The notes beneath the pieces are model-generated. The model did no database searches, was not told the DNA's origin, and was given only the letters and a program-made list of their open reading frames with translations. Shown here piece after piece: positions 25,701 to 62,830 of a DNA stretch of 64,000 bases (its first letter is position 1; each line of letters begins with the position of its first letter). Origin of the DNA: Liolophura sinensis. Lineage: Eukaryota > Mollusca > Polyplacophora > Chitonida > Chitonidae. The position numbers and the translations under genes were made by a program. The stretch spans positions 16,045,385-16,109,384 of the forward strand of contig NC_088295.1 in the NCBI RefSeq assembly GCF_032854445.1, read 5' to 3'.

Positions 25701-28700
25701 TGACAGAACACAGATGAGGGACGCGACAGTGCTTACACTACAGACAGGACTTCACCAGGATCTGATGAGTACCTGGGGTAAGAACAATGCCCTGCTTCTC
25801 TCTTGCTGCCAAGTTTGTGACATTGGCTTCAAGGTTGTCAAACATTGGCAGATGTTAGAATTGTTTCTGTGTGTAAATACTATATGCTTCAAATTCAGTG
25901 AAAGAGTGTGCATACTGACATGTGTTTATAATTTAATATTAGCTGGAAAGTATTAGGCAGCAGTTTTATTAAAAAATTTGATTTTACGTACTGTAAATCT
26001 TCAGTCTTTTCAACCACTAAAGCATTTTTTTCAGTGGAATTTATGCAAACAGTAATTATGAAAATGACGCTAAAAATAATTTGTTTGTCTTATTAAAGAT
26101 GAAAGCTTCGTAAAACATAAATTATTTCTTTACACTAAATAGTTCTCTCAGAACATTTCAATATATCAGTCTCAGAGGTAGTTGAAAGGGTTGAAGAATT
26201 AGGGTATATCAGTATGTATGTGTAATGTATTTGGGGTCTCTGTGGCCGAGGGGGTTAGCATGCCAGCATTTCTCAGTGAGTTCAAGCCCACCTCATGCTG
26301 GCTCCCTCTCCGGCCAAACATGGGAAGGTGTGTCAGCAACCTGTGGATGGTCGTGGGTTTCATCCTGGCTCTGCCTGATTTCCTTCCACCATAATTTTAG
26401 CCCCCGTCGTAGAAGTGAAATGTTCTTGAGTACAGTATGAAACACCAATTAAATAAACAAGTAAATGTAATGTATTCAAAGTACAGATGATTCTGCATTG
26501 TGATATATGTTGTATTGTGTTTACCAGTAGAAAGGATGGGCATGGCAGTGCCGAATCAGGATCTACGAAATCCTCTGACTCTGATACAGAGCGCTCCCCA
26601 AGGCCACCTGCTGGTGGACGACCTGCAACACGGCGCAGTAGGCCGGTATCTGCACGCACTTTACATCAAAACCAGATCATGGACATAGCCCATCCTCTCA
26701 GTGGAGAAGTGGGCATAGAGCTGGGTGTTCAGACCCGTGGCACAGTGGCAATACAGACTGACAGCAGAGGAGACATGGTGAGCAGATCAAACCATTGTTG
26801 TGTAGCCCTTCAGTTTTAATAGATCGCCTAACATTGACAAAGGGACAAAAATCTTTCCATAAAGTAAAATTTTATCCACGAAAGATTAAAAATTCCTACT
26901 TGAGCTTGCAAAGGTAGAGAAAAGTGTTGCTGCTTTTTCTTCATTCTCAACATATTTTGCATTTTACATTGTGGCACATGTCAAATGATACAGAAAAGTA
27001 ATATTTAAATACACTTTTGTGTATATGGGGAGGTGTATAACAAGAGGGTAAAACATGAAAATGCAGCTGAGATACTTTGTTTTATACTGGTTCCCAGCAC
27101 TGAATAACATGGATACTAAGACCAGGGGGGACAACTCTTTCCCCTGACACCTGTATGTACATCATCATATTCCTAGCTTATGGGCATGGTTGAATTCAGA
27201 ACTTTAAAGATCATGGTGGCTGATTTAACACCTCTTCATACACTGGCACTTCAATTCCTGAGAACCTGTGCTTGTTAGGTTATAAACTGTTAACATGCTT
27301 TATTTCAGACTGAGAAAGATTTGGATGAGGTAAACCTTGAACTTGCAGTGTTGTTTACATCTTGGTGCTGGAGTGTGATCAAGTTGTTGGCTAACAAATC
27401 ATCTATATTTGCACTTAAAGGCTATGTGGGTTAATACAAATATTGAAGAATTAATAGCTGACAATTAATTAATTTTTCGTGGTTTGTACATTTTCGTCTT
27501 TTTTATTTGTGGATGTGTTTGCAAAGTTTGATAAATAATGTACTGAAGTAAAAGTTGATATTTTTTAAAAAATAATATACATGTACCTCAGAATTGTTAG
27601 AGCTTAAACATATGGGTCATAGTCTGATAATCTAATAAACAAATCTTTGTGAATACTATCTGAGACAGTGTTAGAATACAAACATATTTGTTTTTATTGG
27701 TGTAAGTTGTATGATCCAGTATAGGGTTGCCTTTGTGAATGCAGTTCTTCTCATATTCTCAAGTTTGAGATGAAAGGCTTTGAAGTACAGTGTATTATCT
27801 TAGGCATTGTTCATGTAGTTTTACATTCTACGTATTAATAGGGCATGTTTGTTTTCCTCCAAAAAGATGCAGTAATTATGTCTGTGCATTGCTCAAGACA
27901 GTGTTTGTTCATCATCATCCTATATATTTGCTTTGTATGATGTTACATCATTGTTGCTTTGCCAGGGAGATCACATTGTGAGGGCTGGTCCCCCGGCACA
28001 GTACCACATCTATGTGAGAACTGGCAAGAGGATAGGTGCCAGCACCAAGGCCCATGTGAAGATCACGCTGTATGGAGAGCATGGCCGCTCACAGGAGTTC
28101 CTACTGGCAGAATCTCAGAGGCACAAGATCAAGTTCCAGAAGGGACATGTATGTGCATAGATTGTTAAATTTTTCAAATCTTGTAGTACCAAATTTCTTC
28201 TTTGAATCACTGCTGTACACTATTAATTTACAACCTGCTGTATTGTTTTCAGGAGGATTTATTTACAGTTTACACCCCTCATGTTGGCAGACTGAAGTGT
28301 GTGAAGATAGGACATGACAGACCTGAGTTAAGTATGTCCATTGTCTTATTGCTTTTTTAATACTGTTATGATTAGCTCAAGCTCTTTGTGTTAAATTGGG
28401 TGTATGTTATCTTAAGTGAGTTCAAAAACTATAATCACGGTGTTGTGACATGCCATACTGTAATAGCTACTGCTGATTTGTATGTTGAATGCAAGAATCC
28501 TGAATATCAGCTTTGTATTGGCCAGTGTACGCATGGTTCCTGGAAGGTGTGACGGTTGAGGACACTGTGGACAAGCGAGTGTACGAGTGTCCGTGTGAGC
28601 GATGGTTGTCGGGTCAGGACGGGGACAAGAAGACATATAGAGTACTACCTGTGGACAGAGACCGTGCCCTTATTAAAGGTAACAGGATTCACCAAAACTA

Positions 28701-31700: not shown

Positions 31701-34700
31701 TCATGAGACCAAATCATGAGAACGGCATTAAACAGCAATTAAACAAAGAAATTATCAGATACATGTACTGAGTACTGTGATTTATGGATGCCAGCACATT
31801 GTATATTACCCAGTATTCGACATCTTCTTCTGAATGTACTGTAATGTACTGTTTTCGCATGTTTGCAAGATGCTTATTCAAGCATATTCTGAAGGCATTG
31901 TTCTGTGGTCACTGATAAAGTTATGCTTTTTCTGAAACCCTGAAACTGGCCAACCCAGTTAATGTAGTTTTGTATCCAAAATTAAAATAAAAAGGTGCAC
32001 AAATTACACTGAAAGTTGATATTTCCTATATTAACGGATTGAGGAATTAGGGTACATGAATGTTCATGTGTACATTATGTCTGATCTGTGGTTGTATGTG
32101 CTCTTTGTAGCTGTTGGCATCCCTGGGAGGGACTGTGAACTGCCTGACCACAGACCAGCAAACACCATTACATTTGGCTGCCCTCAGGTAAGCTTAACTC
32201 TACTGCAGGATGGTCAGCCTGGCGCTAGTATGCATAGATGAACCTTCAACCAGTCATCATCAAACCTCTCTATGAAAATACCCGTAGCAGAAATTGGTGG
32301 GTCCAATGGCGGGGACTCAACAATAGTAGAATTACTGCGTCCCTATGGATTTTTTTGCGTCAGAGAGGCCTGACCTGTACTATTAACACGACTGGTATAT
32401 GCTGTCTTTGTTCTAAGTAAAGTAGATTCACACCCTTAAAAGTGAAGTTAGCCGTCTTTCAGTGTTGGATGTGCAGGAAACACTATGTGAATTTGCTGTC
32501 ACAGCAATCATACAACAGTATATACATTGTAAATGCTACACACACCAATATTTTTCAGACATCTTCTCCATGTACTTCATGATATACATGTATAGCCTCA
32601 ATTTTGGTTTGTTGAAATGGTACACGCTTTTAATATTGGTACATTCAACTCAAAGCACCAATACCTGACATTCTTTTTTACATATATAGAGAGAGAATTT
32701 TGTCTTTAGTTGATTTTGAATGGTGCAAACACCACTCGTATAAGTATCAAGGAGATAAATGCACTGCGTTGTTTTGTCAGTGGCCATGTGGAGATTGCTA
32801 AGTGGCTGATAACTAATGGTGTGGACATAGGAGCTAGAGATGAATCTGACCGCACAGCCTTGGATTTGGCAGTTAGAAACGAACAGGATGAAGTCACAGA
32901 GTATCTTAGGTCATTTGCAGGGAAGGACGCATCTGACAGCGGGTAAGCCGTTCTAGTATACATATTTGATAAAAGGTGTATAAGATAAGTCATTCTGACG
33001 TAGAGGGTAAGCCACTCTAATGTGAAGGCTACCTACACTGGCCTATAGCGGGTAAGCTAGTGTGGTATAGCGGGTAAGCCAGTGTGGTATAGCGGGTAAG
33101 CCAGTGTGGTGTGGCGAGTAAGCCAGTGTGGTATGGCGGGTAAGCCAGTGTGGTATAGCGGGTAAGCCAGTGTGGTATGGCGGGTAAGCCAGTGTGGTAT
33201 AGCGGGTAAGCGACTGTGGTATAACGGGTACCCCACTGTGGTGTGGCGAGTAACCCAGTGTGGTATAGTGGGTAAGCCAGTGTGGTATAGCGGGTAAGCC
33301 AGTGTGGTATAGTGGGTAAGCCAGTGTGGTATAGCGGGTAAGCCAGTGAGGTATAGCAGGTACCCCACTGTGGTGTGGCGAGTAAGCGACTGTGGTATAG
33401 AGGGTAAGCGACTGTGGTATAGCGGGTAAGCCAGTGTGGTATAGTGGGTAAGCCAGTGTGGTGTGGCGGGTAAGCCAGTGTGGTATAGCAGGTAAGCCAC
33501 TGTGGTGTAGTGAGTAAGCCAGTGTGGTATAGCGGGTAAGCCAGTGTGGTGTGGCGAGTAAGCCAGTGTGGTATAGTGGGTAATCCAGTGAGGTATAGCG
33601 GGTACCCCACTGTGGTGTGGCGGGTAAGCGACTGTGGTGTAGTGAGTAAGCCAGTGTCGTATAACGGGTACCCCACTGTGGTGTGGCGAGTAACCCAGTG
33701 TGGTATAGTGGGTAAGCCAGTGTGGTATAGCGGGTAAGCCACTGTGGTATAGCGGGTAAGCCAGTGAGGTATAGCAGGTACCCCACTGTGGTGTGGCGAG
33801 TAAGCGACTGTGGTATAGAGGGTAAGCGACTGTGGTATAGCGGGTAAGCCAGTGTGGTATAGTGGGTAAGCCAGTGTGGTGTGGCGGGTAAGCCAGTGTG
33901 GTATAGCAGGTAAGCCACTGTGGTGTAGTGAGTAAGCCAGTGTGGTATAGCGGGTAAGCCAGTGTGGTGTGGCGAGTAAGCCAGTGTGGTATAGTGGGTA
34001 ATCCAGTGAGGTATAGCGGGTACCCCACTGTGGTGTGGCGGGTAAGCGACTGTGGTATAGAGGGTAAGCGACTGTGGTATAGCGGGTAAGCCAGTGTGGT
34101 ATAGTGGGTAAGCCAGTGTGGTGTGGCGGGTAAGCCAGTGTGGTATGGCGGGTAAGCCACTGTGGTGTAGCGGGTAAGCCAGTGTGGTGTGGCGAGTAAG
34201 CCAGTGTGGTGTGGCGGGTAAGCCAGTGTGGTCTAGTGGGTAAGCCAGTGTGGTATAGCGGGTAAGCCAGTGTGGTGTGGTGGGTAAGCCAGTGTGGTCT
34301 AGCAGGTAAGCCACTGTGGTATAGCGGGTAAGCCAATGTGGTATAGCAGGTAAGCCACTGTGGTGTAGCGAGTAAGCCACCATGGTTATGTGGGTATGTG
34401 GGTATTTTACTCTTTCATGGAGAGTAAGCCATAATTAAGATAGTGTTCAGTGGGATCTTTGTGGTGTATGGGGTAAGTCAAGTTGACATTGTATTTGTCA
34501 GTTGTTTAGTATGTTTCCTATTTTTTCAGAAAACCTGTTGAATTTTCAGTAGAGAATGGCACCCACAATAACTCTGTTACAGACCATGTTGAGGTGAGTG
34601 TAAATACATTTACTTTACTTCAGACTCTATTATGTCATTTCAAAGACAGAAATGACAGCCATGTATTCTATCATGGTGTTGCCAAAGTACATACAGTTGA

Positions 34701-37267
34701 GGTACAAGGCCGTGGGGTGCACCAAGCACATACACTTAGATGCAAACAAGGTTCAAATTCAAACAAGGCTCGGGTGACCTGAGCAAAACCTCTCACCTAA
34801 TATGTTATAATTGATAACTTGCGGTTTGCTCTCGCTTTCCTCAATATGCTGCCATTTTCTGACTTTTCTAAATGGTGAACTTCCCTGAGTTATGTTGATC
34901 ACATATCACAAATTTTTATTTGCAGATTAATTGTTTTTTCACATGTTCAGTACTCAAGAGTGTGTAATTTGAGATGGAAAAAGATGACAAACATTTTTTG
35001 TTCATTTTTAGAGGCAAATCTACTTAGTCTTGTTCAACTTTCGTGAAGTATCAGTTTATAGTTAGTAAATGATATCATAACTTTGTTCATTGTACAGTAT
35101 GTTTACTGTCTTTCTACATTTGTTGTAAATTTCTGTGTTAAATGGTACATGTTAGAAGATTACTTCAAATTTTTACCAGAGAAGTCATTACTATAATGAA
35201 TATTTGGTTCAACATCTGTTTACAGAAGTTCAGTGCACAGACAAGCCAGCCTAGCTCCCCTCACACACAGGAAGAAGACTTGAAGGTATGATCTGGCTGA
35301 CTTATTGACTTTATAGTGGGTCAGTGGGTGCAGTAATATGAGCACAACAACTAATATGTCAGCGTGATGTGAGCAGAACTGCAGTACCATTCTCATGTGG
35401 CCTGCTGTCATGTCCTTGTGATGTGAGCAGAACTGCAGGACCATTCTCACGTGTCCTTCTGTCATGTCAGCGGGATGTGAGCAGAACTGCAGTATCATTC
35501 TCACCTGTCCTTCTGTTATGCCCGCGTGATGTGAGCAGAACTGCATTACCATTCTCACTTGTAGTTCTGTCATGTCAGTGTGATGTGAACAAAACTGTGG
35601 CACACCTCTATTCTCCCCATTCTCACATCCTTAAGTGATGCAAGCAAAACCATCTGCAGTACTTCTCACCAGTCTCCTGTCCTTCAGTGATGCAACCAAG
35701 CTACAATACTTGTCACCACTCATCACATGTCGTCAGGGATGCGACCAAAATTGCAGTACTCTCATCATTCTCACATGTTCTATTAAAATTCCTAAAAAAT
35801 CATTATCATGAACCTCTCTTTGACTGGCTCAAATCAGTGCACAATTGAGGGTGAAGGCCTGCAGACAAAATCTTACATGGTATTGGATTCTAATTGTGAA
35901 ATATTGGTAGCATATCAGATGGTATGAATAATAGTTTTTGTTGTATAAACTTGTTAATTCCATATCATTATATTAAATTATGTAAAATATTAATGCGCTG
36001 TAATATGGTTAGATTTTACACTTTCACAGCTTCCGGGGTGACAAAAGCAGTAGATGATCCATGAGGCTATTTGTGCAGCCTGATGTTCACTGAAGACCGC
36101 TAGTCTATGAGCAATATACATGGAATATGGTTAATTTTACAACTTTCACAGCTTCCGGGGTGACAAAAGCAGTAGATGATCCATGAGGCTATTTGTGCAG
36201 CCTGATGTTCACTGAAGATCGCTAGTCCTATGAGCAATATACATGGAATATGGTAGATTTTACCACTTTCACAGCTTCCGGGGTGACAAAAGCAGTAGAT
36301 GATCCATGAGGCTATTTGTGCAGCCTGATGTTCACTGAAGATCGCTAGTCTATGAGCAATATACATGGAATATGGTTAGATTTTACCACTTTCACAGCTT
36401 CCGGGGTGACAAAAGCAGTAGATGATCCATGAGGCTATTTGTGCAGCCTGATGTTCACTGAAGACCGCTAGTCTATGAGCAATATATATGGAATATGGTT
36501 AGATTTTACCACTTTCACAGCTTCCGGGGTGACAAAAGCAGTAGATGATCCATGAGGCTATTTGTGCAGCCTGATGTTCACTGAAGACCGCTAGTCTATG
36601 AGCAATATACATGGAATATGGTTAGATTTTACCACTTTCACAGCTTCCGGGGTGACAAAAGCAGTAGATGATCCATGAGGCTATTTGTGCAGCCTGATGT
36701 TCACTGAAGATCGCTAGTCTATGAGCAATATACATGGAATATGGTTAGATTTTACCACTTTCACAGCTTCCGGGGTGACAAAAGCAGTAGATGATCCATG
36801 AGGCTATTTGTGCAGCCTGATGTTCACTGAAGACCGCTAGTCTATGAGCAATATACATGGAATATGTATATCTGTACATCACATGAGGAAAAGTCTGGTT
36901 TTCGTCAAGCACTCCTGTTCCCTCCACCCATGAAACTTGCATTATGGTGAACTATTGGATTTTCTCGGCCAGACACACCATGTGACTCGTAAATTCCTGT
37001 TGACGGCAATGCTCCACTATTACAAATCTCACGTGATAATGCATTAAAAGCAGACAGTGCACCTATCCTGAAACTTGCTGCGACCATATAAATGAAAAAT
37101 TCTTCAGTATGGCCTTATAAATCAACAATTTAATAAATGAATAAATAATGCAATCTGCTTATATGTTTTAGGAAAAGCGACATTTATATGAGGAGCAAAA
37201 GAGTAAAATGGACGAGTCAGGACTGAGTTTCTTGGACAGCATTCGCCAAGAACTTGAGCAAGACTAG
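13722..37267 (+). CDS. PLAT domain / Ser-rich / ankyrin-repeat protein, 24 exons
   Basis: Exons: 13722-13762, 17773-17863, 18605-18700, 19714-19791, 21631-21663, 22800-22906, 23895-24003, 24416-24493, 25008-25052, 25487-25516, 25707-25777, 26531-26777, 27309-27329, 27966-28148, 28253-28331, 28526-28678, 28964-30252, 30655-30803, 31177-31345, 32111-32187, 32781-32942, 34530-34593, 35226-35285, 37172-37267. All introns are GT-AG and phases agree, giving 3,528 nt (1,175 residues). The start ATG (MSSDAVVKSVGKK) follows an in-frame stop. Residues 1-350 are basic and unfamiliar; ~358-478 form a PLAT domain; ~480-917 are Ser/Thr/acidic; ~930-1095 hold five ankyrin repeats; the tail ends LDSIRQELEQD. 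PLAT domains bind lipid or protein and ankyrins bind protein, so a scaffold role is inference. Uncertain points: exon 5 could begin at 21607 (eight more residues) and the exon 16 acceptor is weak. AATAAA occurs at 37368 and 37835. I cannot name a vertebrate counterpart. Confidence 0.8.
14950..16215. repeat. Unclassified repeat-like insert in intron 1
   Basis: An intronic stretch opening with CACCCGTCCACCCGTCCAAC and closing with CCCCCTGCCTTTTTGGACGC. Inside, three diverged copies of a motif (TGTGCCAAA .. TGTATTTTAC .. TTTATTTCTACCTCCTG) lie near 15,375-15,510, 15,685-15,780 and 15,805-15,895. ACTCTTTTTAGTGA also occurs twice, about 421 bp apart. I cannot assign it to a transposon class. Confidence 0.4.
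26231..26466 (+). mobile_element. Diverged V-SINE-like element in intron 11
   Basis: GGGGTCTCTGTGGCCGAGGG resembles the tRNA-like head, followed by AGTGAGTTCAAGCCCACCTC, the core TGGATGGTCGTGGGTTTC and the end AATGTTCTTGAGTACAGTAT. It lacks part of the head-core junction and is more diverged than the 10.9, 50.9 and 56.5 kb copies, so it is older. It lies between exons 11 and 12 of the PLAT-ankyrin gene; the 71-codon frame over it is not a gene. Confidence 0.85.
27966..28678 (+). CDS. PLAT (lipoxygenase homology) domain, exons 14-16
   Basis: Three exons of the large gene. Exon 14 gives the first strands (QYHIYVRTGKRIGASTKAHV, then ITLYGEHGRSQEFLL), matching the PLAT pattern of a TG motif, a conserved Ala/Val strand and an LxG turn. 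Exon 15 gives DLFTVYTPHVGRLKCVKIGH, the typical F..G.L..I.IGHD segment. Exon 16 gives AWFLEGVTVED and CPCERWLS, the W-L-V and C..WL motifs that end the fold. The domain is complete at about 120 residues. The exon 15/16 joint is the least certain: two acceptors (28510 and 28525) are in frame and differ by five residues. Confidence 0.85.
28964..30252 (+). CDS. Large exon 17: Ser/Thr/acidic low-complexity region
   Basis: A single 1,289-nt exon encoding about 430 residues between the PLAT and ankyrin parts. It opens with DSDDDSGSDVSYIKKYGED, has Ser-Asp runs (SSSDSETDSDTETDTSSSES) and ends with another (SDSDSSSSNGSESESDSDSE). In the middle a short peptide period occurs (SGSATDRTTQ, repeated near 29,850-29,980). 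No fold is recognised; acidic Ser clusters of this type are typical casein kinase 2 targets, which is inference. Splice phases (2 in, 0 out) fit both neighbouring exons. Confidence 0.85.
30655..32942 (+). CDS. Ankyrin-repeat block, exons 18-21
   Basis: Four exons give consecutive ankyrin repeats: GETLHEAAKAGKLTIVTEII, then GWTALHVAASEGQLEVAQWL, GYSAIHLAALHGHATTLKLL, QQTPLHLAAL joined across an intron to RSGHVEIAKWLITNGVDI, and DRTALDLAVRNEQDEVTEYL. The TALH/AA/G.EVA pattern is clear in each. The junction between exons 20 and 21 adds one residue to the fourth repeat. Exon 21 ends in the donor GG|GTAAGC; if the intron is not removed, an in-frame TAA follows at once and the protein would end here. 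Confidence 0.85.
31455..31550 (-). mobile_element. Possible decayed SINE fragment in intron 19
   Basis: AATTGATGTAACACCATACT followed by CAGGAATGATTCACCT resembles the reverse complement of the SINE 3' end with many changes. Low confidence. Confidence 0.35.
32995..34385 (+). repeat. 22-bp minisatellite built on a 5' splice-site sequence
   Basis: About 60 tandem copies of a 22-bp unit, GGGTAAGCCAGTGTGGTATA plus GC, fill most of intron 21 of the PLAT-ankyrin gene. The gene's own donor 50 bp upstream reads AGCGGGTAAGCC, the same as the repeat's key segment. Blocks of 19 units recur in order (33,362-33,632 matches 33,780-34,050, a shift of 418 bp). Variants include CAGGTAAGCC, GAGTAAGCC and GGGTACCCC. 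Since 22 is not a multiple of 3, several minus-strand frames stay open for over 1 kb; these are artefacts. Confidence 0.97.
35345..35645 (+). repeat. 54-bp tandem repeat in intron 23
   Basis: GATGTGAGCAGAACTGCAGT recurs at about 35366, 35420, 35474 and 35528, with a diverged copy at 35582, a period of 54 bp. Traces (GTGATGCAAGCAAAAC, GATGCGACCAAAATTGCAGT) continue to about 35,760. Frames on both strands are open because 54 is a multiple of three; no protein is inferred. Confidence 0.9.
36004..36866 (+). repeat. 123-bp tandem array, seven near-identical copies, intron 23
   Basis: TTCCGGGGTGACAAAAGCAG occurs at about 36031, 36153, 36276, 36399, 36522, 36645 and 36768, a period of 122-123 bp. 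Copies differ at only a few positions (GACCGC or GATCGC; GTCTATGAG or GTCCTATGAG). This similarity implies recent amplification or homogenisation. The array lies in the last intron of the PLAT-ankyrin gene. Confidence 0.96.
37080..37150 (+). mobile_element. Decayed SINE 3' end before the last exon
   Basis: AAATGAAAAATTCTTCAGTA followed by ATAAATGAATAAAT resembles the SINE 3' end (AGTGAAATATTCTTGAGTAC plus AAAT tail). It ends about 20 bp before the final acceptor at 37171. Confidence 0.5.
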
Positions 37268-42594: not shown

Positions 42595-42621
42595 CCAGAG
42601 GATACGTCTCGTTAGCGTAAG

Positions 42622-43740
42622 ATGAGCAATTCCGGTCGGAAAGCCCAAAGCTTGGAGACGCTTGTATCACGCTTCTCGGCCAAGAAAAAGCGCGAGCAAG
42701 ACATCACGTTCTGGAGTGGCGAGTCGGAGGGTTTCCTGAGTACGGACCGGACCTATTCTCTCACACCCAGGCAAGTGTCCAATGAGCTGGGGGAGAGCCA
42801 GGTGCCTCGTGTTCCCGCTAGAGAGAAAGACGTGCTCTCTGCACACGGCTACTTCTTTCAAAGCATTATTAGCGAGTCAAAGTGTAGTAAATTGTACAAT
42901 GTTACTGACAGAAGAAACGGTAAACTAAAAGCGGTAAGGGTTTACACCATCGAGAATGCAGCTTTAGCCTCTCCACATTTTGTGAACTTCATCAAGAACG
43001 AGATTACTACTTTATCCCAAATTCAACATGAAAACATCATCAGGTTGTACTACAACTTTCAGTACTACTCCAGACATTACGTTATCATGGACTACATGGA
43101 AAACGGTTCTCTGGAAAACTACATGAAAGCACACAGGCTCTTTCCCTCGCCAAAAGAGCGCAAATCTATCTTCCAGCAGATGTTGTCAGCCTGTAAGTAT
43201 TGTCACGATATCAATATCGTTCACCATGACCTCAAGCTGACAAATATACTATTGGATAAGAACAATGACATTAAGTTATATGGTTTTGGGTGGTGTGTGC
43301 CGTGGGCTAGCGAACAAGGGGAGGTTGAGCTGTGTACCGACTATTGCGGAAACCTGGACTATGCCGCCCCGGAAGTGCTAACCCACACGCCATACGACCC
43401 CCGACCCGTAGATATTTGGGCGCTAGGAGTGATTTTGTATACACTTCTTTGTTTTGAGTTACCGTTTGGATCCGTCAGCTCAAGCACCCGCCGACTTTTC
43501 AAGTACCAGAAATCTCGGAAACTACGCAAAAGGATCGTTAAGAAGGCCCCACCGGAAGAGCAGTCGTGTATTCACCTTATCTTGGACATGCTAGAGCCCG
43601 ATGTGACGCAAAGAATCTCACTTAATTCTATATTTTCCTGCAAGTGGCTTTCCGAAGAACGCAAAAGTAAGGCTGAGAACGCTAAATCCACACCCTTTGA
43701 ATCCTCGCCATCTTCCCTGAGTGGCATATTTACAGAGTAA
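42622..43740 (+). CDS. Intronless protein-kinase-like protein, probable pseudokinase (CAMK/TSSK-like)
   Basis: An uninterrupted 372-codon frame. Residues 1-75 are a basic, Ser-rich leader; ~76-344 align with a Ser/Thr kinase domain; the C-terminus is Ser-rich. Retained: the alpha-C glutamate (E127, FIKNEITTL), catalytic-loop aspartate, lysine and asparagine (HHDLKLTN, D203, K205, N208), APE (249-251), DIWALG (264-269) and the late arginine (R331). Lost: the glycine-rich loop (ISESKCSK, 83-90, has no glycine), the VAIK lysine (AVR, R106) and the DFG aspartate (GFG, 221-223); HRD reads HHD. ATP and metal binding should therefore be absent or weak, so a scaffold or allosteric role is inferred. 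Overall pattern and lack of introns recall testis-specific Ser/Thr kinases. AATAAA at 44035-44040 lies beyond the stop of the convergent minus-strand gene. Confidence 0.85.
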   Translation: MSNSGRKAQSLETLVSRFSAKKKREQDITFWSGESEGFLSTDRTYSLTPRQVSNELGESQVPRVPAREKDVLSAHGYFFQSIISESKCSKLYNVTDRRNGKLKAVRVYTIENAALASPHFVNFIKNEITTLSQIQHENIIRLYYNFQYYSRHYVIMDYMENGSLENYMKAHRLFPSPKERKSIFQQMLSACKYCHDINIVHHDLKLTNILLDKNNDIKLYGFGWCVPWASEQGEVELCTDYCGNLDYAAPEVLTHTPYDPRPVDIWALGVILYTLLCFELPFGSVSSSTRRLFKYQKSRKLRKRIVKKAPPEEQSCIHLILDMLEPDVTQRISLNSIFSCKWLSEERKSKAENAKSTPFESSPSSLSGIFTE

Positions 43741-49200: not shown

Positions 49201-49320
49201 TTTTTTGAACACATTGCAATATTTACATTGACTATGGGTTCAATCCCGTCCTTGTACTGGAAATTGCTTATTATTCGTTTAGCCTTACAGACAAAATGTG
49301 ATTATGGGCGTTCGCGCATG
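46205..49320. other. Intergenic; one interspersed repeat, no gene recognised
   Basis: AT-rich intergenic sequence. Three imperfect copies of a 26-bp motif (CTTTGTCTGCAGCTCAACAC) occur near 47,408-47,480. The only clear repeat family member is at 48,625-48,895. Short frames near 46.9, 47.5 and 47.7 kb are unremarkable. Confidence 0.6.
48625..48895 (+). repeat. Interspersed repeat, CATATGACTGAAAA family
   Basis: From about GTTCCGCATGGAGGGGATAG to TTTCGTTGTCATATGACTGA, AAAATTGTTAACTACACAGT and TAAACCCCAAGCACTCACTC. The 3' motif is shared with copies at 12.6 and 52.2 kb, and this kind of end is familiar to me from molluscan repeats (recollection, not a search). A 65-codon frame inside it is not a gene. 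Confidence 0.6.
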
Positions 49321-49324
49321 GGTA

Positions 49325-50125
49325 GGTCTATCTTACATTCGTTGGAAGTTTTGCTTTATGTTCAGGGGAGGTTTGTCTTACTTTCGTGGGAAGGGAAATG
49401 TATCTAACCCTGGGGAATAGGTTTGTCTTCCATTCACGGGAAACTTTGTCTTACGTTCAAGAGGAGGTTTATCTTAAAATCACGGGGAGATTTGTCTTAG
49501 GTTCGTGGGGAGGTTTGTCTTACGTTGATGGGGAGGTTTGTTCCACCTTCGTGGGAAGGGAAGTTTATCTAACCTTTGTGGAGAGGTTTGTCTTACGTTC
49601 ACGGGGAGGTTTGTCTTACATTCACGGGGAGGTTTGTCTTACATTCACGGGGAGGGTTGTCTTACATTCACGGGGAGGGTTGTCTTGCGTTCATTACGAG
49701 GGTTGTCTTATGTTCGTGGGAAGGGTTGTCTTACTTTCATGGGGAGGGAAGGTTGTCTAACCTTTATGGAGAAGTTTGTCGTGCGTTTACGTAAAAGTTT
49801 GTCTTACGTTCTGGGGAGGTTTGTCTTAACTTCTTCACTCGTGGGGTGGTTTGTCTTATGTTCACGGGTAGGTTTGTCTTACGTTCGTGGAAAAGGAAGA
49901 TTCTTTAACCTTTGTGGAGAGGTTTATCTTAGGTTGACGGGGAGGTTTATCTTACGTTCATGTAGATATTTCTTTTACGTTCGTGGGGAGGTTTGTCTTA
50001 TCTTCGTGGAGAGGCTTGTTTTACGATCATGGGGAGGTTTGTCTTATGTTCGTGGAGAGGTTTGTTTTACGTTCATGGGGAGGTTGTGTTATCTTCGTGG
50101 AGGGGTTTATCTAACGTTTGAATTG
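49325..50125. repeat. ~23-bp minisatellite array
   Basis: About 33 imperfect copies of a unit near GGGGAGGTTTGTCTTACGTT plus CAC. Unit length varies (23-27 bp) and GGTTTGTCTTA is the most constant part. Overlapping open frames of 72-218 codons in all three forward frames are artefacts of the array. Confidence 0.93.
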
Positions 50126-60811: not shown

Positions 60812-62830
60812 TGATTGATTGATTGATTGATTTTTATGAGCCATGCAATAATAAATATATACATTGGATTTTAAGACATCAACAAAATACAGACACAACG
60901 TTATAACAATAAAGTCTAGAAAAATATATTACATGGTGGGAATAAAGCTAAGGATGAGCTTGTTCTATTCCGTGTATAATTAATAACGGCATTGGAGGGT
61001 GAGGCTGACATTTAATTTGTGACTTAATAATGTTTTTTTCTTTCTAAATATATTATGAATTTATTTTACCTCAGCCTTAATTGTGTAATGTTAGACCGAA
61101 GATTGCAGCTTAGAGAGTAGAACAGATTTTAATAAAGATTGAAAATGCGATTTAGAAGAAACTGATCTTAGTGTTAATGGAAGCTTGTTCCAATCCCAAG
61201 GACCGGAACTTCTGAATAATAATATAGATTTGTATTGTACAATGGTTTGTGGAAGGCTAGATGTCTATTTCGAGTTTGATACGGATTTAAAATTCTTGTT
61301 TGATTAAAAGAGGGCTTCAAACTTACAGGAATATTGTCTGTGGAATAAAAGTAAATATGAGTTTGTAACAGAGTAGAAAATAGAGATAGTTTGGCAAGGG
61401 GTAAGATTTTCAGTTCGCAAAAAAGCGGTTGGGTGCGGCAGAGGCGGCCTGATAAAGTAATTGTTCTAATTGCCCTTTTTTGAACTATGTACAAGGGCTT
61501 GAGATGTGTCTGATATGCGTCTCCCCATAATATATTGCCGTGTAATAGATATGTATAAATAAGTGAGTAATAAAGGATTAGGAGGTTCTTTTTATTTACA
61601 GAGTGTTTAATGTGTGAAATAAGTCCTTTATTTCTTGACAGTTTGGAACATACGTAGCTTATATGAACAGCACAGATCAGTTTCTCGTGGAAAAATACAC
61701 CAAGAAATTTTAATTTATCAACTTTTTCATTTTCCTTACCAGAGATAATCAAACTGGGAACTGCAGTTATTTTCGTGTTATTGGGTTTTATTAACATATA
61801 TTTGGTTTTGGAGGAATTCAGAGATAAGCGATTTGCCAGAAGCCACGTATAAAGTTTTTCCAACTCGACATTTATGACAGAAATCACTTGAGTTGCGTCA
61901 TCGTTGAAGTAAATGCAGCTTGTGTCATCTGCAAATAGAGTAAGATCCAGGAGGTTTGATGCTCTAATGATGTCATTAATGTAGAGTTGAAATAAAGTCG
62001 TGCCGAGAATAGATCCCTGTAGAACACAAATAATGGTAGCTGGGTTAGATTGGGCGTTATTACACTTTACATATTGTTGCCTGTCAGACAGATATTTTTC
62101 CAACCATTTATTTGGACAGTTGTGAATACCATAATGAGAAAGTTTAAGAAGAAGGGTATCATGGTCAGGGTATCAGTGTCAAATGAATTTGACAGGTCCA
62201 AGAATGTTACCGCACTGTACTGTTTATTCTCTTTCGCATTTACTAGTTTTTCGTAGACTATAGGCAGCGTGAATGGTAGAATGATTGGCCCTAAAACCAA
62301 ACTGATTTGGATTAACTATAGATTCCTCTTCTAGATATTCGAGCAATATTATTGATACAGTTTTCTCAAGGATTTTGCTGAAACAAGGTAGGACAGAAAT
62401 AGGTCTATAATTTTCAATGTGATTAGTCTGACCAGATTTATATATAGGCAAGGCTTTAGCGATTTTTAGACTTTTCGGAGAAGTAAGAGATAAATTGATA
62501 ATGTGTGCTAGAGGTGTAGATATTACACCTGACACTAACTTCACGAGGGATGAACCTATTCCATCTAATCCAGGCGAGGAATTACCTTTCAGCTTACCTG
62601 TCACAGATTGAATAAAATTTGGAAAGACGAGCGAACACCTGAACTCTGTAAATTGTTGAAAATCTGTAAATTGTTCTTTTGCGGAGTCCATGTTGCTCCC
62701 TAGTTTGCCTGCTATTGTACTAAAGTACTCATTAAAGTTGGTAACAATCACGGTCTCATCACAAATGTCACTACCATTTATACTGTATGATTGAAACTGT
62801 CCATTAACACAACTCAGCATTGTTATTCAA
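60812..62830 (-). mobile_element. Decayed non-LTR retrotransposon (Jockey/CR1-like reverse transcriptase)
   Basis: Three overlapping minus-strand frames (62820-62224, 62300-62067, 62103-61174) together cover a reverse transcriptase region, so at least two frameshifts separate them. The first carries GNSSPGLDGIGSS, ENYRPISVLPCFSKILEKTV and NPNQFGFRANHSTIHAAYSL. The third carries QGSILGTTLFQLYINDI and the catalytic FADDT (near 61,930), then LANRLSLNSSKTKYM and a thumb-like tail. The 5' end, including any endonuclease, is absent, as is usual for 5'-truncated copies. The 3' end is a short (CAAT)n tail at 60,812-60,832, typical of CR1/Jockey-like elements that end in short tandem repeats. Inactive. 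Confidence 0.88.

Follow-up and report, generated by a model that had tools for sequence, protein, structure and literature searches.

Why does an intron of a mollusc gene carry some sixty look-alikes of its own 5' splice site, and do these copies act on splicing or are they a by-product of the way in which the repeat arose? The question is raised by a 22-bp minisatellite that lies downstream of an ankyrin-repeat exon in the 64-kb stretch of DNA analysed here, which we call the window. The reading that we favour, with a probability of about 0.68, is that the array is a minisatellite of the type known in lancelets as a mirage, that is, a likely harmless product of tandem copying derived from an exon-intron junction rather than a splicing switch.

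The array and its host gene

TRF called the array at 33,044-34,379 with a period of 22 bp, 60.7 copies, 84% matches and the consensus TATAGCGGGTAAGCCAGTGTGG, which includes the donor-like GGGTAAGCC. When unit matching was added, the main minisatellite extended over 33,044-34,385 of the plus strand and comprised 61 copies, 51 of which carry GTAAG in the sense of the gene (37 GGGTAAGC, 10 GAGTAAGC and 4 AGGTAAGC); the remaining units have GTACCC (6), GTAACC (2) or GTAATC (2). Over the slightly wider stretch from 32,951 to 34,500, GTAAG occurs 54 times in the sense orientation and not once in antisense, and the array of sense-oriented donor look-alikes that the first-pass annotation had described is confirmed. 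This stretch contains 26 nine-mers identical to that of the real donor, CGG/GTAAGC (the slash marks the end of the exon). When its GT sites were scored for pairing with the 5' end of U1, 31 of the 273 sites equalled or exceeded the real donor, which served as the reference, 4 of them exceeding it. Within the array an exact 314-bp repeat was found at an offset of 418, and 105-bp stretches recur at offsets of 242 and 660. Such exact repeats are block copying, which is expected of unequal exchange or replication slippage, and the 314-bp block suggests that the array has turned over recently. The 22-bp unit has no antisense stop, and because of this all three antisense frames are open for 391-463 codons at 33,029-34,434 of the minus strand, which is a trap for gene finders.

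This array is one of 10 distinct arrays in the window, in which TRF rows make up 12% of the bases. A 123-bp unit present 7 times at 36,002-36,866 (97% match) has the acceptor-like TTTCACAG in its consensus and is possibly an acceptor-side mirage, and a 23-bp minisatellite at 49,320-50,118, with GTAAGA in its consensus on the minus strand, may be a donor array belonging to a gene on the minus strand. The window also holds a protein kinase domain, encoded in one uninterrupted frame of 374 codons (42,616-43,737, plus strand, Pfam 1.9e-53), and, at 61,177-62,826 of the minus strand, two adjoining open frames with reverse transcriptase matches, the second of them under the family cut-off, that are probably a retroelement remnant.

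When the exons of the host gene were joined by hand, Pfam found PLAT (3.1e-22) and, over the ankyrin exons, Ank_4 (3.4e-33) plus related families. The PLAT-domain exons lie at 27,967-28,678 on the plus strand, with introns within and outer limits that are approximate. The ankyrin-repeat exon 5' of the array was recognised by Pfam, and its borders, read by eye, give 162 nt at 32,781-32,942 (plus strand), ending AGC GG/G; in this reading the donor is AGCGG/GTAAGCC. The tail of this exon, DASDSG, comes after the ankyrin repeats and is outside the Pfam matches. The next exon, also read by eye with the frame carried on (GG/A), is KPVEFSVENGTHNNSVTDHVE at 34,530-34,593 of the plus strand, with the acceptor ATTTTTTCAG and the donor GAG/GTGAGT, and the exon thereafter, likewise by eye, is KFSAQTSQPSSPHTQEEDLK at 35,226-35,285 (plus strand), followed by GTATGA, which reads either as GTA and a TGA stop or as a donor. 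Downstream of the array there are 21 codons in the first of these exons and 21 residues up to the TGA at 35,289-35,291, about 43 residues in total, unless another donor is present at 35,286 (AAG/GTATGA); the figure of about 73 lost C-terminal residues that had been claimed earlier could thus not be reproduced. The in-frame TAA that had been claimed right at the junction is there, since the frame runs AGC GGG TAA, and retention of this intron or use of any decoy in it would therefore meet a stop immediately.

Likeness of the real donor to the repeat unit

The first-pass annotation proposed that the exon-intron junction itself was the seed of the amplification. In the junction unit at 32,935-32,956 of the plus strand, which includes the GT of the real donor at 32,943-32,944, unit matching found 16 of 22 positions identical to the 22-bp unit, and elsewhere on the plus strand, at about 62,300 positions away from the array region, no score exceeded 15. 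Because any donor must look like a donor, the comparison was repeated with GGTAAG held fixed, and 10 of the 16 remaining positions matched (p about 0.002 on local composition, in a test of this single array from a window that holds 10 distinct ones); 20 further GGTAAG sites, taken from the two strands, scored 7 of 16 at best. Between the donor and the array there are two decayed units at 32,977-33,020 (plus strand, unit matching), 13/22 at 32,977 and 15/22 at 32,999, which are exactly 22 bp apart, and the first lies 42 bp past the donor, which is 2 bp off perfect register. No such pair of decayed units 22 bp apart was found at 62,271 other plus-strand positions of the window. The array had been said to start about 50 bp past the donor; the clean array begins at 101 bp and the two decayed units lie in the gap. 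On its 3' side unit matching found two more decayed units on the plus strand, at 34,416-34,437 (13/22) and 34,465-34,486 (14/22).

The unit matches the junction at 14 of 20 positions on the intron side and at 6 of 10 and 11 of 20 on the exon side. Since this exon-side match is short and the exon end is outside the Pfam matches, the direction from exon to array is not shown at the window locus. The proposal of the junction as the seed thus draws support from the 16/22 donor match, the decayed bridge and the sister loci described below, and the part of it that concerns direction does not come from this gene. As a process, junction seeding has good support, and at the window locus it is likely.

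What could also account for these features is the reverse order, in which the array was there first and the exon was lengthened into it, its donor being recruited later from the edge unit. The decayed units do run back from the array toward the donor, the part of the exon that follows the ankyrin repeats is outside the Pfam matches, and the 22 exon bases that immediately precede the junction unit match the unit at 10 of 22 positions, as if the array had once reached the exon; however, this last is a weak single test, as about 2.5% of window positions reach 10/22. Moreover, at five sister loci it is the residues of a conserved protein in the exon part of the unit that fix the direction, and we therefore regard the reverse order as unlikely. 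It is rather improbable, too, that an independent G-rich minisatellite came to lie near the donor and is donor-like by accident. With 10 distinct arrays in the window and TRF rows over 12% of its bases, some minisatellites of this genome will be near donors, and control words form arrays too, but chance does not readily account for a flank match beyond GGTAAG (p about 0.002, for one array of the 10), for the decayed units between donor and array, or for GTAAG being found in one orientation only.

Donor arrays at other exons and across the genome

The genome from which the window comes (609 Mb, 632 contigs) was searched for closely spaced triples of a donor motif, and the genome-wide figures that follow are matches, of which there are many per array. 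Over the whole genome, triple AGGTAAG had 2061 matches and its reversed word 967, triple AGGTGAG had 2627 against 793, triple CAGGTAAGT 238 against 85 and triple CAGGTGAGT 507 against 10, and the scrambled word AGGATAG and its reversal, also as triples, had 829 and 786. Outside arrays AGGTGAG occurs 16 times per 108 kb, AGGTAAG 8 times and the control words 6-9 times, and since AGGTGAG is there about twice as frequent as the control words, part of its excess is background. When the match rows up to 5.94 Mb of contig C1 were grouped by hand, the matches listed contained at least 12 arrays of AGGTAAG and at least 11 of AGGTGAG (at least 22 distinct), compared with at least 3 of GAATGGA, at least 2 of GAGTGGA and at least 1 of AGGATAG among the control words; the difference has a p of 3.7e-5 if the word backgrounds are equal. 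The donor side is undercounted, as the CAGGTGAGT search showed two arrays on the minus strand of C1, at 4.54 and 4.66 Mb, that were left out of the AGGTGAG count. Because of the AGGTGAG background, because the first rows of C1 come from a stretch with a match density above the genome average and because matches per array are heavy-tailed, the genome-wide excess of donor-bearing arrays is claimed as modest only.

Of the 24 CAGGTAAGT and CAGGTGAGT arrays that were grouped by hand on C1, which is 96.4 Mb long, 10 fall within 15 Mb of its start and 5 within 5.4 Mb of its end, and donor-bearing arrays may crowd toward the ends of this contig. At C1:26353473-26354057 a GAATGGA control array (26353739) overlaps a CAGGTAAGT array on the opposite strand. 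Elsewhere in this genome, contig C8 has eight mollusc-type hemocyanin domains in a row (PF14830, best 3.3e-41), which identify the genome as that of a mollusc, and contig C99 has seven COX1 matches by family search at 8348-102844, one of them partial, with a spacing of about 15.5 kb, which is probably an assembly concatemer. The mitochondrial order is ND3-ND2-COX1-COX2-ATP6 on one strand, COX1 being identified by family search and the other names by eye, and COX1 is open under the invertebrate mitochondrial code. A lancelet origin, which had suggested itself from the occurrence of mirages in lancelets, was rejected on the hemocyanin domains and on this mitochondrial order, which fits a mollusc; a search for the GFP family had no match, but this carries little weight, as its controls had none either.

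To see arrays of this kind beside other exons we turn to 26 C1 arrays among the AGGTAAG and AGGTGAG matches listed, 22 of them in the first 5.94 Mb, where two further AGGTGAG arrays were left out, and 4 AGGTAAG arrays up to 14.9 Mb; at each edge 1.75 kb was examined. In 6 of these 26 arrays the first copy supplies the donor at which a frame with protein homology ends. At the other 20 no homology-supported exon was found within the 1.75-kb edges; the array at 5188484 has an exon-like frame with no PDB match and is outside the six. Donors at the sister loci were read by eye and first copies were mostly set automatically, those at 515050 (annexin) and 4296077 being set by hand; for annexin, no upstream copy had come out of the automatic scan. 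The six genes are annexin (PDB 3.2e-25, summed over the annexin repeats), RRP7A (PDB 7.1e-11), a Fe-hydrogenase-like gene (Pfam 1.8e-12, PDB 4e-7) that is presumably CIAO3/NARFL, RPC1/POLR3A, a subunit of RNA polymerase III (PDB 3.8e-8), tissue alpha-L-fucosidase (8e-10) and an ankyrin protein (Pfam 1.8e-7). The array consensus matched the exon end at 29/30 positions in RPC1, 26/30 in the hydrogenase-like gene, 24/30 in the ankyrin gene, 17/20 in annexin and 15/20 in RRP7A. At the fucosidase locus there is little likeness on the exon side (5/10), and the exon-end sequence is thus inside the unit at five of the six sister loci. Over the first 20 intron positions, the consensus matched at between 15 and 20. 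As these five exon ends encode conserved protein, the exon was there first and the array was derived from it.

Exons of antisense genes also adjoin donor arrays (calpain, 9.2e-7; KH domain, 2.1e-4) and exons adjoin control arrays too (guanylate cyclase, P4Ha_N and GH31). In the flank scan, in which the control arrays numbered 20 and included 26353739, which overlaps a donor array, Pfam families totalled 17 in the sense 5' flanks, 13 in the mirror flanks, 4 in one control set and 2 in the other; the ORFs scanned were those of at least 50 aa, that is, 128 of 171, 129 of 170, 108 of 134 and 111 of 143 ORFs of at least 45 aa. As credible animal genes we judged Fe_hyd_lg_C, ankyrin, fucosidase and Rrp7 in the sense flanks; calpain and the KH domain in the mirror flanks, where the SV2 luminal domain (3.5e-5) is doubtful; guanylate cyclase, P4Ha_N and perhaps Fer4_NDSU1 and collagen in the control sense flanks; and GH31 in the control mirror flanks. 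The other families (ice nucleation, pentapeptide, DUFs and more) were taken for repeat or chance matches. With so few credible families in the sense and mirror flanks, a strand bias of flanking exons cannot be read from them.

Probable origin, splicing and known systems

A probable explanation for such arrays is that a fragment across an exon-intron boundary, with a few exon bases and some intron bases, was tandemly duplicated and that expansion and partial homogenisation would then have followed by ordinary slippage or unequal exchange, in which multi-unit blocks would be copied. The edge unit would keep its donor since the gene needs it, the adjoining units would decay, and the copies would resemble donors through descent from one. 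A break mechanism specific to junctions was considered and is not needed; given that the window alone has 10 distinct arrays, many could have been seeded near donors at random. The copies would most probably be without productive use, the exon-proximal donor being chosen, probably through exon definition, and at the window locus use of a copy or retention of the intron would lead to a stop at once and thereby probably to nonsense-mediated decay.

At the six sister loci an in-frame stop is found 6 to 173 bp past the real donor. In RPC1, RRP7A and annexin this stop comes before the nearest array copy, and in the other three genes copies come ahead of it, at +31 with the stop at +32 in the ankyrin gene, at +40 with the stop at +41 in the hydrogenase-like gene and at +37, +75 and +113 with the stop at +173 in the fucosidase gene. 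Judged from the reading frames, use of these copies would shift or extend the frame, and at these three loci not every copy is thus barred by the stop. Within the examined flank stretches, U1 pairing stronger than that of the real donor was found for 14 of 17 nearby donor-like sites in the RPC1 gene, 3 of 4 in annexin and 0/3, 1/6, 1/9 and 0/5 at the other four sister loci. The sister genes presumably still work, which suggests that the exon-proximal donor is chosen or that other products are removed. We propose, tentatively, that minisatellites arise repeatedly at exon ends in this mollusc and that the exon-proximal donor is chosen despite equal or better U1 matches beyond it. If this is true, the arrays are a natural test in which position relative to the exon, and not the strength of U1 pairing, decides the choice of donor, and those like the one in the RPC1/POLR3A-like gene are natural constructs for studying the way in which the spliceosome settles on a single donor when many are present.

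Besides its role at donors, U1 suppresses premature polyadenylation, which is known as telescripting. A functional array, in which the copies bind U1 as decoys or hold it against premature polyadenylation and array length tunes expression, would fit the 31 of 273 GT sites that pair with U1 no worse than the real donor, the sense orientation of every GTAAG and the variable length that block copying makes likely, but it is very improbable given that 10 of the 61 units are without GTAAG, that arrays of the same kind are present in unrelated genes with unrelated units and that lancelet mirages are reported, in the accessible parts of PMC3087553 and PMC3902484, to have no effect on splicing. The earlier idea that decoys compete with the real donor or that array length tunes splicing is unsupported, and it goes against what those parts of the lancelet reports state (PMC3087553, PMC3902484).

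Minisatellites in mollusc introns are known from abalone, a gastropod, in which intron 3 of a TSSK1-like gene contains a length-variable minisatellite with a 27-bp unit (PMC6905558, in the portion available). The array in the window is likewise a minisatellite inside a mollusc intron; unlike the window unit, however, the abalone consensus has neither GTAAG nor GTGAG on either strand, and the available portion of that paper reports no link to a junction (PMC6905558). In the literature searched, which left most subscription journals outside, no splice-junction minisatellites were found in molluscs. Tandem duplication of sequence with splice signals inside a gene is also the basis of intron gain by duplication of AG/GT segments (PMC4974935, PMC2809761), for which PMC3087553 cites the Rogers model. 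That the window intron is itself a product of such a duplication was rejected, as its acceptor is without unit-like sequence: no gapless plus-strand match of at least 11/22 to the unit starts from 34,466 to 34,619. Mirage-type arrays have been proposed as a possible source of new introns (PMC3087553, in the part available).

The kind of array described here is already known from lancelets, and its recurrence in a mollusc is the new interest. Mirages, tandem repeats of exon-intron boundaries, were described there in Adh3, the globins BflGb6 and BflGb9, troponin C and PGBD5, and in the sections available splicing is stated to be undisturbed (PMC3087553, PMC3902484). The BflGb6 mirage has 3 and 6 copies of 150-160 bp and the Adh3 units are 10-72 bp long, according to the accessible text of PMC3087553. 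Like these, the tandem repeat in the window adjoins a real exon-intron boundary, with decayed units back toward 32,943, and its units carry splice-site look-alikes in the sense of the gene, just as many lancelet units carry AG/GT look-alikes. Unlike these, it is found in a mollusc, it has about 61 copies of only 22 bp and the exon part of its unit is short, although that part is clear at the five sister loci. A further difference is that such arrays occur in one genome beside exons of several genes that are unrelated to one another, whereas in the literature examined mirages were described gene by gene in lancelets, and their presence in several mollusc genes would show that the process is not specific to lancelets.
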